NCBI RefSeq assembly: GCF_016598535.1
Contig: NZ_CP066779.1
Coordinates: 4,834,053-4,898,052, forward strand
Source of the DNA: Rhodococcus sp. P-2
GTDB lineage: Bacteria; Actinomycetota; Actinomycetes; Mycobacteriales; Mycobacteriaceae
Reading direction: 5' to 3'
DNA length: 64,000 nt
The translations under genes were made by a program, and so were the position numbers. Numbering within the stretch: the first letter of the stretch is position 1; each line of letters opens with the position of its first letter. The notes under the pieces were generated by a model. It saw only the letters and a list, made by a program, of their open reading frames with translations. It was not told where the DNA came from and searched no databases. Below are positions 55,297 to 59,905 of the stretch, piece by piece.

Positions 55297-56493
55297 TCAG
55301 GCTGCGGTCGGATGCAGCGAGGTGCTCGGCGCCGACTGCTCTGACGCTGCCGGGCGGTCGATCTTCGCCGCGACGATCAGAACCAGCAGACCGGCGACGG
55401 TGACTGCCGCTCCCATCCAGATCGGGGAGGTGAAGCCGAGCCCCGCAGCGATGGTGATTCCGCCCAGCCATGCCCCGAGTGCGTTGCCGACGTTGAAGGC
55501 GGCGATGTTGGCACCCGACGCCATGGTCGGTGCGGCCGACGCGTAGTTCATGATCCGCATCTGCAGGCCGGGAACCGTCGCAAAACCGAAGGCGCCCATG
55601 AAGAACAGCGAGATCACAGTCATGACCTTGCTCTCCGCGGTGGCGGCGAACACGATCAGAACGACGGTCAGGATCGCGAGAATCCAGACCAGCGCCTTCG
55701 TGAGCGAACGGTCGGCCGCCTTGGCGCCGAGGAAGTTACCGACGAACAGGCCCGAGCCGAAGAGGATGAGCAGCCACGGAACGCTGGACGTCGCGAAGCC
55801 GGTCACCTCGGTGAGGGTGAAGGCGATGTAGGTGAACGCTCCGAACATTCCGCCGTAGCCGAGGATGGTGATGACGATCGAGAGCCATACCTGCTTGTTG
55901 CGGAACGCCCCCAACTCTCCGCGCAATCCGCCGCCGGTCGTGCTGGCGGGTGTCGTCGGGACGAGTGCTGCAATTCCGATCAGGGCGATGACGCCGATGA
56001 CGGTGATGGCCCAGAACGTCGAGCGCCACCCGAGTTGCTGGCCCAGCAGCGTGCCGAACGGAACGCCGAGGACGTTGGCGATGGTCAGGCCCGCGAACAT
56101 CATCGCGATGGCGCCGGCGCGCTTGTTGGGCGCGACCATGTCGGCGGCAACCACCGAACCGATTCCGAAGAATGCACCGTGGCACAGCGCCGCGACGATG
56201 CGGCCGCCCATCATGACCTCGTACGACGGCGCGAGCGCGGACATCAGATTGCCGATGATGAACAGCACCATGAGCGAGAGAAGGACTTTCTTGCGCTCGA
56301 AGCGGGTGACGGCAGCGGTCAGGAGGATCGCACCGATCGCCACCGACAGTGCGTAGCCCGAGATCAGGTAGCCCGCGACGGACTCGGTGACCTCGAAGTC
56401 GGCTGAGACCTCGGGCAGGAGGCCCATGATGACAAATTCGGTGAGGCCGATTCCGAACCCGCCCATAGCGAGGGCAATGAGACCCAATGGCAT
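55297..56493 (-). CDS. MFS exporter, DHA1 (AraJ/YdhP-like)
   Basis: 398 aa, twelve membrane segments. The N-terminus ALAMGGFGIGLTEFVIMGLL, then PEVSADFEVTESVAGYLIS is the AraJ-type drug:H+ antiporter signature; GGRIVAALCHGAFFGIGSVV is the loop 4 motif. The role is likely efflux of a toxic small molecule. ATG 56493. Divergent from a MarR gene, with repeated operator-like sequence between, so expression is probably induced by the MarR ligand. Confidence 0.9.
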   Translation of the reverse strand: MPLGLIALAMGGFGIGLTEFVIMGLLPEVSADFEVTESVAGYLISGYALSVAIGAILLTAAVTRFERKKVLLSLMVLFIIGNLMSALAPSYEVMMGGRIVAALCHGAFFGIGSVVAADMVAPNKRAGAIAMMFAGLTIANVLGVPFGTLLGQQLGWRSTFWAITVIGVIALIGIAALVPTTPASTTGGGLRGELGAFRNKQVWLSIVITILGYGGMFGAFTYIAFTLTEVTGFATSSVPWLLILFGSGLFVGNFLGAKAADRSLTKALVWILAILTVVLIVFAATAESKVMTVISLFFMGAFGFATVPGLQMRIMNYASAAPTMASGANIAAFNVGNALGAWLGGITIAAGLGFTSPIWMGAAVTVAGLLVLIVAAKIDRPAASEQSAPSTSLHPTAA

Positions 56494-56545
56494 CTCGATG
56501 TTCCTTTCACAGATTTACGCGTAAGCCGTTAGCGGGCGTGTGCAG

Positions 56546-56585
56546 TAGTTGCAGGCGCGCTATAAATAGTTGCACGCGCGCGCTA
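56546..56585. promoter_or_regulatory. Direct repeats between MFS exporter and MarR
   Basis: TAGTTGCAGGCGCGCTA (56546-56562) and TAGTTGCACGCGCGCGCTA (56567-56585) are near-identical direct repeats 21 bp apart, two helical turns, in the 143-nt divergent region. Good candidates for MarR binding. Confidence 0.55.
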
Positions 56586-56636
56586 CATGCGCAAGCTGGT
56601 AACCTGGAGCCGCAGGAAACGGACAAGGAGAATCAC

Positions 56637-57083
56637 ATGGGGATCGCCGACGACGCCGTCGAAATCCGTTCGCAAGGGTGGCGCACGCTCGCAGCACTGC
56701 ACGGCGCCCTCGACACCGAACTGGAACGCGCGCTCCAGCGTGAGCACAAACTGTCCGTCGTCGAATACACCGTGCTCGACGCGCTGAGCCGCCAGGACGG
56801 CTGGCACATGCGCATGGCCCAGCTGGCCCGCGCTGCCGCACTGAGCAGCAGCGCCACGACGCGCTTGGTGAACCGACTCGAAGATCGAGGACTACTGACG
56901 CGCATCCTGTGCGCCGACGACCGTCGAGGCATCTACACCGAGTTGACGCCGGCCGGCCGCGAGCTTCTCGAAAGCGCACGGCCGACGCACGACGCCACCC
57001 TCGAGGCCGCGCTCGACGAGGCATGCAAAACGCCTGAACTCGCGCCACTGGTGCGCGCCCTGCACGAGTTACCCGTCGGCTAG
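56637..57083 (+). CDS. MarR-family regulator
   Basis: 148 aa winged-helix protein. The recognition region is MAQLARAAALSSSATTRLVN, then RLEDRGLLTRILCADDRRGI, with the MarR wing DDRRG. ATG 56637 follows AAGGAG (56624-56629 region). Divergent from the DHA1 exporter, which it likely represses. Its stop overlaps the convergent ThrRS stop by 3 nt (shared CTAG). Confidence 0.9.
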   Translation: MGIADDAVEIRSQGWRTLAALHGALDTELERALQREHKLSVVEYTVLDALSRQDGWHMRMAQLARAAALSSSATTRLVNRLEDRGLLTRILCADDRRGIYTELTPAGRELLESARPTHDATLEAALDEACKTPELAPLVRALHELPVG

Positions 57084-58300
57084 AAGTCTGCCGGAAGCAG
57101 GGCACGCTCCGCGATGCCCGAGACCACCTGAGCGACAAACACACCCGCGTCGACCTCCGCCCGCCCACCACGCGCGGGGACCAGAACGTCGACGGTGCCG
57201 CCGTGCACCTCGTTGTCCCCGATCACCGCGATGTACGGGTCACGGTGAGTGCGCGCCTCGCGGATGCGACGTCCCAACGATCCGTCAGCTGCGATCGCCA
57301 CTCGAACATCGTGAGCCTCGAGATCAGCCCGCAAACGCTCGGCCGCATCCCGATGTCGGTCGCCGACGGGCAGGATCGAGACTTGGTTGGGTGCCAGCCA
57401 CGGCGGCATCCGTCCTTCGAACCTTTCGATCAAGAGCGCAGTCATGCGTTCCATCGACCCGAGCAAGCCCCGATGGATCATGACGGGGCGAGCCTTGGAT
57501 CCGTCCTCAGCGGTGTACTCGAGGTCGAACCGCTCCGGTTGATTGAAGTCGAGTTGGACGGTGGAGAGTGTTTCCTCGCGGCCGTGCGCGTCTCGCACCT
57601 GGACGTCGATCTTGGGACCGTAGAACGCTGCCTCCCCCTTCGCTTCCACGTACTCGATCGAGCGTGCATTCAGCGCCCCGCGAAGGTGATCCTCGGCGTC
57701 CGCCCACTGCTCGTCGGTGCCGAGGTACTGCCCCTCTCCCCCTCTGATCGAGAGTCGGTACCCCCGTTCGGCAATCCCCAGAGTCGAGTAGCAGCGCTCG
57801 ATCGCGTCGAGCGCGACGATCACTTCCGCTTGCACTTGTTGACGACTACAGAAGACATGTGCGTCGTCGAGATTGATCTGTCTGACTCGACTCAATCCGC
57901 TGAGAACTCCGGAGAGTTCGCTACGAAACATCGAGCCGAGTTCACGAACGCGGAAAGGTAGCTCGCGATAACTACGACCGCGAGCGGCGAATACCTGAGC
58001 GTGATGAGGACAGTTAGCCGGACGAAGGAGAAATGCCTCTCCGCCTATTTTCATTTCGGGGAACATGTCGTCCGAGAACTTGGACCAATGACCAGATCTC
58101 TCGTACAACTCTTTCTTCGCCATAACGGGGGTATAGACACCCCGGCACCCGGAGCGCGCTGCTTGTTCGGCGGCGAACTTTTCGAGTTCGCTCCTGATGA
58201 TCGCGCCGTCCGGTAACCAGAGTGGGAGGCCTGCTCCGACAATGGGGGTGGTGGCGAATAACTCCAGCTCGCGCCCGAGTTCACGGTGGTCAACGCTCAT
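57080..58300 (-). CDS. Short threonyl-tRNA synthetase paralogue without TGS and editing domains
   Basis: 406 aa; canonical ThrRS is about 640-690 aa. Only the class II catalytic core and anticodon domain are present. Zinc ligands are conserved as Cys97 (ANCPHH), His148 (DDAHVFC) and His276 (MIHRG). Motif 2 is FRSELSGVLSGLSRVR, motif 3 GLLGSMERMTALLIERFEG. The C-terminal domain has VSILPVGDRHRDAAERLRAD and ARTHRDPYIAVIGDNE. The N-terminal TGS and N2 editing domains are missing without trace, so this is a designed short form, not a pseudogene. It should charge tRNA-Thr but not clear Ser-tRNA-Thr. ATG 58300 has GGAGAG. A threonine attenuator precedes it, implying induction under Thr-tRNA shortage or ThrRS inhibition. 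Confidence 0.92.
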   Translation of the reverse strand: MSVDHRELGRELELFATTPIVGAGLPLWLPDGAIIRSELEKFAAEQAARSGCRGVYTPVMAKKELYERSGHWSKFSDDMFPEMKIGGEAFLLRPANCPHHAQVFAARGRSYRELPFRVRELGSMFRSELSGVLSGLSRVRQINLDDAHVFCSRQQVQAEVIVALDAIERCYSTLGIAERGYRLSIRGGEGQYLGTDEQWADAEDHLRGALNARSIEYVEAKGEAAFYGPKIDVQVRDAHGREETLSTVQLDFNQPERFDLEYTAEDGSKARPVMIHRGLLGSMERMTALLIERFEGRMPPWLAPNQVSILPVGDRHRDAAERLRADLEAHDVRVAIAADGSLGRRIREARTHRDPYIAVIGDNEVHGGTVDVLVPARGGRAEVDAGVFVAQVVSGIAERALLPADF

Positions 58301-58342
58301 GAGAGCTCTCCAAATCGTTCAAGGGGAGACGCACACGGAGCG

Positions 58343-58379
58343 AAGAAACAAGAAAACCCCGGGGCGATAACTCCCGGGG
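58343..58379 (-). terminator. Attenuator terminator before the short thrS
   Basis: On the minus strand CCCCGGG (58379-58373) pairs with CCCGGGG (58363-58357) around a 9-nt loop, then TTTTCTTGTTTCTT follows, a classic intrinsic terminator. Its 5' half CCGGGAG (58377-58371) can instead pair with CTTCCGG (58422-58416), giving an antiterminator with one G.U. It lies 43 nt before the ThrRS ATG. Confidence 0.85.
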
Positions 58380-58403
58380 CTGAAAGGGTTCGGTCAGCAG
58401 TTG

Positions 58404-58460
58404 CTAAACGATGCGCCGGAAGAGAACCGGCGTCGTCGTGCTGTGCGCAATACTGACCAT
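58404..58460 (-). CDS. Thr leader peptide of the short thrS
   Basis: Eighteen codons from ATG 58460 to TAG 58404 encode MVSIAHSTTTPVLFRRIV, with three consecutive ACG Thr codons (58439-58431). The codons form part of a pause hairpin: ACGA-CGCCGG (58436-58427) pairs with CCGGCG-CA-TCGT (58419-58408). A ribosome stalled at Thr codons would free the antiterminator strand. No ribosome site is visible, but a TAnnnT -10 box ends 7 nt before the ATG, suggesting leaderless translation. Confidence 0.82.
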   Translation of the reverse strand: MVSIAHSTTTPVLFRRIV

Positions 58461-58467
58461 GTACGTG

Positions 58468-58473
58468 AGGTTA
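58468..58473 (-). promoter_or_regulatory. Candidate -10 box of the Thr leader
   Basis: Minus-strand TAACCT (TAnnnT) is followed by 7 nt and then the leader ATG at 58460, the spacing expected for a transcript that begins at the start codon. No strong -35 is seen. Confidence 0.45.
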
Positions 58474-58630
58474 CATCAACTTCCGACCCACCTACAGCCC
58501 GAATTGTCGGGCCTCTATGCTGACGCAACTGGGAAGGCGCAGCAGTAGCCAACGAAACACCCACGAAGAGCGAAGTTTCGGCAATCATGTCCGAACGTGA
58601 GGTTCTCGGATATGAGGAGGATGTGCGACG

Positions 58631-59905
58631 GTGCCGGACCACTTGCTCGAACAGTTGATCACCATTCCTTTGTTCACCGGAATCATCGGGTACATCACCA
58701 ATTGGTCGGGCGTCCTGATGCTTTTTGCGCCGATCAACTTCCACGGGATCAAAGTGCCCGGCCTCAAACTGCTCTTCCCGTTCCTTCCCCGGCGCGTCCA
58801 GGTGATCCCCGCGATCACGAGCGACGGCCGATTCGGTTGGCAAGGGATCGTCCCTTCGCGGGCGGAGAAGATGGCGTCGATCGCCGTCGACAAATCCCTC
58901 GCGAAGGTCGGCAGCATTGCCGACTTCTACCGCGTTCTGGACCCGGACAGCATCGCCGAGCACTTGGTGAACATCTCGCGCAGTGAAGTGCGCGGCGTGG
59001 TCACCAGAATCATGACGGCCGAGAATCCTCAGCTCTGGCACAACCTTCCGACGTCGGTGAAGGAAGCCGTCTTCCGCAAAGTGGAGGACGACTTGCCGGC
59101 CAGCGTGCGCATGATCACCGACCGCATCGAAGAGGACATCGACGAGTTCATCGACGCGAAGCTGATGGTGATCCGCTACCTCTCCTCGCATCCCAAACTG
59201 CTCAACGACATCTTCCGCACGATGGGCAACAAAGAGCTCCGGTTCATGCAGAACTTCGGCTTCTACTTCGGTTTCCCGATGGGCTTCGTGCTCGTCGGAA
59301 TCCTCCACCTGGTTCCGCAGTGGTGGGTGCTTCCCATCGGTGGCGTGATCATCGGATACATCGTGAACTACCTCGGCATCACGATGATCTTCGAGCCGAT
59401 CACCCCCAGCCGTTGGGTGCCGTGGCGACAGGGACTTTTCCTCAAACGACGCACCGAAATCATCGCCGGGTACGCAAAAACCCTGGCCGATCACGTCGTG
59501 ACGCTCGAGAACATCGGCACCGAACTCCTCGAAGGTCCCCGCTCGGACCGAACCCGACGGATGCTCGACCAGGTACTGCGCGAATCCGTCGACGACGCCG
59601 CCGGCTGGGCAAAGTCGGTCGTCAAGATGACCGTCGGTTCGCAGAGCTACAAGCGTCTGCCCGGCCTGGCCACCACCGAAGTGCTCGACCTGTACCCAAG
59701 GGTCTTCGAAGACGCAGAGTTCGCCGAGAGCCAGTCGGAGAAGATTCGTGTCTTCGTCACCGAACGCATGAGCATCCTTTCACCGGAAGATTTCAGCGAA
59801 CTACTACGCTCAGCCGTCAAGCAGGACGAGTGGCTGTTGTTCGTACACGGGGCCGTGCTGGGCTCGTTTGCCGGTTTCCTACACCTCGCAATATTCGGAG
59901 TATGA
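58631..59905 (+). CDS. DUF445-family membrane protein
   Basis: 424 aa. Hydrophobic segments near residues 10-35 (IPLFTGIIGYITNWSGVLML), about 218-255 (LVGILHLVPQWWVLPIGGVI, then IGYIVNYLGITMIF) and the very C-terminus (VLGSFAGFLHLAIFGV) frame amphipathic helices. GYITNW and GYIVNYLGI are the repeated DUF445 (YheB-like) signatures. Function unknown. GTG 58631 has AGGAGG (58615-58620). Its stop overlaps the next gene (ATGA), so the two form a pair. Confidence 0.85.
   Translation: MPDHLLEQLITIPLFTGIIGYITNWSGVLMLFAPINFHGIKVPGLKLLFPFLPRRVQVIPAITSDGRFGWQGIVPSRAEKMASIAVDKSLAKVGSIADFYRVLDPDSIAEHLVNISRSEVRGVVTRIMTAENPQLWHNLPTSVKEAVFRKVEDDLPASVRMITDRIEEDIDEFIDAKLMVIRYLSSHPKLLNDIFRTMGNKELRFMQNFGFYFGFPMGFVLVGILHLVPQWWVLPIGGVIIGYIVNYLGITMIFEPITPSRWVPWRQGLFLKRRTEIIAGYAKTLADHVVTLENIGTELLEGPRSDRTRRMLDQVLRESVDDAAGWAKSVVKMTVGSQSYKRLPGLATTEVLDLYPRVFEDAEFAESQSEKIRVFVTERMSILSPEDFSELLRSAVKQDEWLLFVHGAVLGSFAGFLHLAIFGV

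Follow-up and report, generated by a model that had tools for sequence, protein, structure and literature searches.

The locus raises the question of whether a second, short gene for threonyl-tRNA synthetase (ThrRS) in Rhodococcus sp. P-2 is controlled by a ribosome that reads threonine codons in a leader peptide, as proposed in an initial annotation of the window, here meaning the whole stretch of 64,000 nucleotides that was analyzed. As read from the sequence and its predicted fold, an 18-codon leader, a hairpin involving its Thr codons, and both an antiterminator and a terminator are located on the minus strand within positions 58460 to 58350 (Table 1). The 18-codon leader with its Thr-Thr-Thr run and the pause hairpin, in which ACGA pairs with TCGT and CGCCGG with CCGGCG, had both been described in that annotation; the former was read directly on the minus strand and the latter was present in the predicted fold of positions 58480 to 58301. 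This fold had an energy of -62.2 kcal/mol and a z-score of -2.87, with 1 of 200 shuffled sequences being equally stable, and it contained an outer stem (58458-58447 with 58404-58392) that was absent from the annotation. The z-score is moderate on its own, and it is the conservation in relatives that places the element far beyond chance. The promoter, a probable leaderless start, a box that may pair with the Shine-Dalgarno sequence and an altered pocket in the enzyme had been overlooked. The distance from the U-rich tract to the start of the short thrS gene was about 50 bases.

Table 1. Coordinates of the leader, RNA boxes, promoter and target gene in the window.
Feature	Position	Strand	Basis and remarks
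Leader ORF	58404..58460	-	ATG at 58460, TAG ends at 58404, 18 codons, MVSIAHSTTTPVLFRRIV; leaderless transcription probable
Regulatory codons ACG ACG ACG (Thr-Thr-Thr), ACGACGACG	58431..58439	-	Direct reading
Box 1, 5' arm of the Thr-codon hairpin	58427..58439	-	Fold and family comparison
3' arm of the Thr-codon hairpin, overlapping box 2	58408..58419	-	Fold and family comparison
Box 2, antiterminator 5' arm CTTCCGG	58416..58422	-	Pairing tests, folding
Box 3, antiterminator 3' arm CCGGGAG, overlapping the terminator 5' arm	58371..58377	-	Pairing tests, folding
Terminator hairpin (boxes 3 and 4), CCCCGGG 58379-58373 with CCCGGGG 58363-58357	58357..58379	-	Fold, terminator search
U-rich tract TTTTCTT	58350..58356	-	Direct reading
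Box 5, GTCTCCCC, with complementarity to the Shine-Dalgarno sequence and the terminator 5' arm	58323..58330	-	Family comparison; putative second layer
Shine-Dalgarno sequence GGAGAG of the short thrS	58306..58311	-	Direct reading
-10-like box TAACCT, 7 bases 5' of the leader start codon	58468..58473	-	TANNNT conserved in the family
GACAAT, tentative WblC/WhiB7 box (GAAAWY with one mismatch), 35 bases 5' of the -10 box	58503..58508	-	Motif from PMC7157823
Short threonyl-tRNA synthetase, 406 aa, without editing domain	57080..58300	-	Pfam, NCBIfam

A contig scan of genomes, from which the best 80 of 402 loci were taken (many of them full-length ThrRS genes of other phyla), and a search of the genus together yielded 59 loci with a short gene. 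Five duplicates were left out, as was L062, in which the match begins inside the gene and no leader was seen, resulting in 53 distinct elements. The leader, the core hairpin and the terminator were present in all 53, 5' of related short thrS genes. The terminator hairpin proposed for the window has counterparts throughout this set; the search always yields a best hairpin, and the arms were at least 8 bases long in all 53, with mismatches in L055. The U tracts 3' of the hairpins varied in quality and were poor in many members of the class. Three adjacent Thr codons were found in 50 of the 53 elements, while L053 contained 2 followed by CCG and L061 and L063 contained 2; the leaders of L053 and L063 were below the threshold of the leader search and were read directly from their sequences. 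Within the genus, the short gene was present in 10 of 28 genomes, including that of P-2 (E ≤ 1e-100).

The association of the element with the short gene was tight in both directions. A covariance model built from the 53 distinct elements, including that of the window, gave one strong match in the P-2 genome (E 9e-19), with the next best at E 0.02. In a survey of 394 genomes of the class, including that of P-2 and some others also represented in the model, 64 matches were obtained at E ≤ 1e-5, of which 60 were located before a short thrS (that of the window and 59 other loci), 3 before a lone full-length thrS (L123, L134 and L141) and 1 at the end of a contig (L103). At E ≤ 1e-4, 67 of the 394 genomes had a match; the additional 3 were the weakest (E ≥ 4e-5; L158-L160), with no ThrRS gene found in roughly 2.5 kb downstream, and one of them overlapped a tRNA-Tyr gene. 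In the reverse direction, a short ThrRS was identified at E ≤ 1e-95 in 61 genomes of the class, counting as short those rows with at least 48% identity, and the element was found in 59 of them. In the other 2 (G319 and G179) the contig stops no more than about 110 bases away from the gene. A further genome with a short ThrRS (L124 in G115) was absent from the set at E ≤ 1e-95, and more divergent short genes may lie below this E-value cut-off. Outside the class, all 4 of the matches to the covariance model among 296 genomes of the phylum preceded a short ThrRS gene. A leader parser that required a -10 box and 2 Thr codons accepted 62 of 66 loci, which is no independent test of either feature; the rejected loci were the 3 weak matches without a ThrRS gene and L148, which contained Thr-Thr-Thr-Pro before a short thrS and no start codon with a fitting -10 box.

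A full-length ThrRS was likewise encoded in each of the 71 short-gene genomes that were checked, being split over 2 contig pieces in G023, and the label of backup synthetase given in the initial annotation fits this distribution. In G268, G404 and G381, the full-length thrS was the only thrS found and was itself preceded by the element.

The pairing between boxes 2 and 3 was examined in 107 of 115 elements, leaving out L055, L136, L140 and L153, in which no CCGG was found, and L048, L053, L149 and L152, which could not be parsed. Since the boxes were located via CCGG, pairs 1 to 4 are fixed by choice, and the counts include near-duplicates and ignore kinship. Pair 5 was C-G in 59, T-A in 29 and T-G in 13 elements (standard in 101 of 107), while for pair 6 a standard pair was present in 94 of 107, made up of 37 C-G, 43 T-G and 14 T-A; pairs 7 and 8 were standard in just 64 and 47 of the 107, respectively. 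When box 3 was permuted among the 39 distinct pairs, the observed level of pairing was reached in 0 of 500 permutations, with kinship ignored and with L024, L027, L030 and L034 being out of register. By contrast, five of the six pairs in the core of the hairpin between boxes 1 and 2 never varied and the sixth had a single G-U, which represents conservation with no compensatory change. Co-variation of the stems, suggested in the initial annotation as a check, was seen in the antiterminator; the nearly invariant core of the pause hairpin is supported by its conservation. In the relatives compared, thrS was kept together with the Thr codons and the compensatory changes.

The switching was modeled by folding RNA that ended before box 4 in three ribosome states, using 46 non-redundant elements. 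In the stalled state, the ribosome masked all of the RNA between its 5' end and a point 14 bases away from the first nucleotide of the second Thr codon. The mean number of pairs between boxes 2 and 3 was 8.5 with the ribosome stalled at the second Thr codon, 0.5 without a ribosome and 0.4 when the ribosome was positioned at the stop codon, and at least 3 such pairs were obtained in silico in 45, 3 and 1 of the 46 elements, respectively. The only failure in the stalled state was L140, the terminator of which was parsed wrongly. With box 4 present, the terminator was preferred at equilibrium in every state, even the stalled one (0.90 of pairs). Since the terminator wins once box 4 has been made, switching needs the kinetic order that is usual for attenuators.

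We consider it very likely that the element works as a transcription attenuator of the classical, ribosome-mediated kind and that its target is an auxiliary, editing-less ThrRS, a reading of the initial annotation that is backed by the comparative evidence. Translation of the leader would start immediately upon its synthesis, and the 5' end is probably leaderless. When Thr-tRNA is ample, the ribosome would pass the three ACG codons and reach the stop codon, and box 2 would be either hidden or bound to box 1; box 3 would then pair with box 4, and transcription would end. With scarce Thr-tRNA (low threonine, or a main ThrRS that is poisoned or overloaded), the ribosome would wait on the ACG codons and cover box 1, box 2 would take box 3 before box 4 exists, and RNA polymerase would continue into thrS. 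The signal to which the cell responds would be the charging of Thr-tRNA, and the short enzyme would serve as a backup.

The regulatory codons were biased, with ACG at the first, second and third Thr positions in 95, 108 and 110 of 111 elements, respectively. Across five further genes of the window, ACC outnumbered ACG (76 versus 34), and none of the 11 Thr codons in the short thrS gene of the window was ACG. The third ACG is partly forced because of the pairing in the stem. It was also noted that in L095-L157 the tail of many terminators is TTCGTCGT or TTTGTCGT and not a U run, and that these sequences are complementary to the ACG codons. A TANNNT motif was located 6 to 8 bases 5' of a leader start codon in 53 of 53 elements, compared with a mean of 1.2 and a maximum of 4 of 53 in 200 shuffles. 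At WblC promoters in Streptomyces coelicolor, the start site is 7 or 8 bases downstream of the -10 box (PMC7157823), and the spacing of the -10 box taken together with this distance suggests that transcripts would start at or next to the leader start codon. The leader is thus probably transcribed leaderless, as reported for thrL in Streptomyces lividans (PMC8079986).

The promoters also bear on another reading, in which the leader senses slowed translation in general, like the uORF of whiB7/wblC, and not the charging of Thr-tRNA. An AT peak was seen 31 to 29 bases 5' of the -10 box across 111 distinct promoters, which contained 23 exact GAAAWY sites, 22 of them at -35 to -32, and a GAAANY site no more than 48 bases upstream was present in 37 of 115 elements (shuffled mean 2.8). 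A TTG at -35 was found in just 14 of 115 promoters. A gene to be considered here is thrS2 of S. coelicolor, which we take to be SCO3778. This gene is listed as WblC-activated in Table 1 of PMC7157823, and the AT peak and the placed GAAAWY sites fit the WblC box described in the same report. However, the placed GAAAWY is present in at most 22 of 111 promoters and has one mismatch in the window, so that the exact motif is missing at that place in about four in five. Moreover, the Thr codons are adjacent, occupy a constant place ahead of a ThrRS gene and are preferentially ACG although ACC is commoner, and promoter control can coexist with a Thr-specific leader. A general sensor of translation in place of a threonine-specific one is therefore improbable.

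T-boxes govern many synthetase genes in Firmicutes, which lends some interest to a T-box or another tRNA- or ligand-binding riboswitch as the explanation. In Actinobacteria, T-box control has been described for ileS (PMC1262725). A search of positions 57900 to 58800 against Rfam up to E 1 gave RF02837 alone, at 16.5 bits against a cut-off of 49.5, and none of eight related loci had a match at the gathering score. To our knowledge, an ORF with Thr codons in its first stem is not a feature of T-boxes. We consider such a riboswitch highly improbable, and this reading was dropped since the window and the eight loci gave no Rfam support for it. It is just as hard to credit that the leader peptide is itself the product: the tail that follows TTTP is alike within clades (e.g. 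TTTPxxVPAR), but both the tail and the length of the peptide differ between clades, while the RNA core CGCCGG is constant even where the third Thr codon has changed to CCG (L053).

Attenuation of the full-length thrS in the P-2 genome was considered and rejected. A short ORF with Thr-Thr-Pro is located upstream of this gene, but in Rhodococcus of greater distance Thr-Thr-Pro is either missing or no longer in frame, and since Thr-Thr-Pro is not kept and the genome has no second strong match to the covariance model, the ORF looks like chance. We noted that the full-length thrS genes of ten Rhodococcus genomes (L185-L194) contained GATAACATG about 80 bases before the start, and that the Thr-Thr-Pro ORF is intact in the genome of P-2.

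The threonine attenuator may be extended by a second layer at the Shine-Dalgarno sequence. Box 5 would pair with the Shine-Dalgarno sequence by default, and in the absence of the terminator its loop would take box 5 and thereby free the Shine-Dalgarno sequence. In the 46 non-redundant elements, at least one of which (L140) was parsed wrongly, while 4 of the 115 elements remained unparsed, the mean pairing energy of the terminator arm and loop with the downstream stretch was -20.3 kcal/mol, versus -16.5 for swapped and -14.5 for shuffled sequences, with 0 of 200 swaps and 0 of 100 shuffles being equally strong. The corresponding means for the downstream stretch with the Shine-Dalgarno sequence were -14.5, -11.8 and -10.0, again with 0 of 200 swaps and 0 of 100 shuffles being equally strong. 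The swaps cross clades, so that shared descent inflates the contrast between own and swapped pairs, and the energies in the window were weaker than the family means (-11.3 and -9.9), with a short match. Complementary pairs of loop and box 5 were visible as GCGAGTG-CACTCGC in many members of the class, GCGGGTG-CACCCGC in L120 and CGAACG-CGTTCG in L149. With a stalled ribosome and RNA that ended before the Shine-Dalgarno sequence, at least 3 pairs between box 5 and the arm or loop formed in 27 of 46 elements when box 4 was masked and in 6 of 46 when it was not. On the other hand, boxes 3 and 5 were already paired in 9 of 46 elements without a ribosome and with box 4 present, and the pairings of box 3 with boxes 2 and 5 were held together in just 12 of 46 with box 4 masked. 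The Shine-Dalgarno sequence was mostly paired at equilibrium, its mean unpaired probability being 0.27 to 0.28 in all four states, and a state-dependent opening at equilibrium, as a candidate mechanism, was not found in the folding of the 46 elements. A double lock that operates kinetically is possible, although we hold to the second layer only tentatively and regard it as doubtful.

The gene behind the attenuator encodes a ThrRS that had been called editing-less, and the domain content agrees with this: the protein matched the catalytic core and the anticodon domain alone in Pfam and passed the NCBIfam cut-off for thrS, whereas the full-length ThrRS in the same genome (6.34 Mb in one contig), which is 43% identical to the short protein over the shared part, also contains the tRNA_SAD editing domain. 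Among the best 80 of 402 loci, the nearest named relative was Rhodococcus erythropolis NBRC 15567 (96%). In a phylogeny, 49 short ThrRS proteins were placed on one side of a branch with 100/99 support, and 29 full-length proteins, including three with the element, on the other. An Amycolatopsis metagenome-assembled genome (L016) contained a short ThrRS that grouped with those of Rhodococcus, which suggests either transfer or mis-binning.

To compare the active sites, 113 distinct short proteins (119 rows, L062 being unalignable) were aligned with 29 full-length rows, among which a single gene is represented by both L123 and L163. The residues that bind zinc, C334, H385 and H511, were kept in the 113 distinct short proteins. 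Met332 (E. coli numbering), which was Met in 29 of 29 full-length rows, was replaced in the short proteins by Ala (52), Ser (59) or Gly (2), and Gln381 was replaced by Leu in 113 of 113, a residue seen among the full-length rows in four from Bacillaceae alone. As judged from these residues, the short protein probably has ThrRS activity, with its pocket altered and an editing domain in cis missing. Replacement of Gly463 by Ala or Ser lowers the sensitivity of the E. coli ThrRS to borrelidin, and the second ThrRS of the obafluorin producer has Ser and Met at the places of 463 and 489 (PMC11252418). Resistance through these known sites, Gly463 or Leu489, was rejected for the short proteins: Gly463 was unchanged in 113 of 113, and the Gln found at 489 in 111 of 113 also occurred in 9 of 29 full-length rows and is therefore not discriminating. 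The attenuator-bearing full-length ThrRS of G268 (L163) had Ala at 463 and Met at 489. It was also observed that G383 encodes a third, divergent full-length ThrRS (L183; 51% identity to the full-length protein of P-2) with a long branch and unusual pocket residues.

In the gene neighborhood, the region downstream at 55297-57083 contains a gene for a MarR regulator, which lies tail to tail with that for the short ThrRS, and a divergent gene for an MFS efflux protein. The efflux protein is near the Cmx/CmrA family (334.7 bits against a cut-off of 400). These 2 genes and an upstream DUF445 gene were all located beside thrS in L013, L014, L015 and L023, and neither the MarR nor the DUF445 gene was found in any of the other loci among the 48 compared. 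Nine Promicromonospora loci had a weaker MFS match (33% to 39%) within the stretch compared.

These observations can be combined in a broader picture of a triple-gated emergency ThrRS. In such a scheme, a promoter of the WblC/WhiB7 type would answer translation stress, the leaderless Thr leader would answer the charging of the ACG-reading tRNA, and box 5 would repeat the decision at the Shine-Dalgarno sequence, while the remodeled pocket (Met332 to Ala, Ser or Gly, and Gln381 to Leu) would keep the enzyme active under natural ThrRS inhibitors at the price of editing. We regard the full combination as speculative and rather unlikely.

An auxiliary tryptophanyl-tRNA synthetase of the trpS1 type is reportedly also a second synthetase copy under ribosome-mediated attenuation, responding to Trp and not Thr, and the title of that work names inhibitor resistance. 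The parts of the attenuator described in the initial annotation were confirmed and its reading as attenuation of a second, short thrS is supported, but such an arrangement has precedents, the closest cases being thrL-thrS in S. lividans (PMC8079986) and the trpS and leuS attenuators of Streptomyces (PMC1262725). In S. lividans TK24, a leaderless Thr leader of 18 residues precedes a thrS gene (SLIV_19412/19410; PMC8079986). Its sequence, MKRVRPFLETTPGFVPAR, has 13 of 18 residues in common, as counted by eye, with the leader MKRAQPFLTTTPDSVPAR of L112, which precedes a short thrS; this likeness concerns the leaders alone. Unlike most elements described here, thrL has two Thr codons only, and the passages on thrL in that report mention one hairpin with no U-rich tract or clear terminator, and describe neither an antiterminator nor relatives (PMC8079986). 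Like the present element, the trpS and leuS attenuators combine a leader peptide with an antiterminator and a terminator ahead of a gene for a synthetase, but they serve other amino acids (Seliverstov 2005, PMC1262725). No conserved RNA structure 5' of threonine operons is reported in that study, and neither thrS nor threonyl occurs as a word in its main text (PMC1262725). Anabaena likewise makes under stress a second ThrRS, T2, with impaired editing beside an editing ThrRS, T1, but the editing domain of T2 is degenerate rather than missing, as it is in the short ThrRS, and T2 is under Zur (zinc) control (PMC4787780). In the literature searched, which was mostly open access, neither a complete thrS attenuator nor its tie to a short ThrRS was found, and the element had no Rfam family match reaching the cut-off in the window and the eight loci. 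The thrS attenuator is accordingly a well-supported addition to the known synthetase attenuators of Actinobacteria.

The report of thrL from a single strain of S. lividans is thereby extended to a switch that is defined in its structure, clear in its output and present in several classes of one phylum. As a probable tie between the charging of threonine and a spare ThrRS without an editing domain, the element makes a trade of accuracy for survival in actinobacteria under inhibition of ThrRS testable, as well as the protection that the short thrS may give against borrelidin, obafluorin or other inhibitors of this enzyme.
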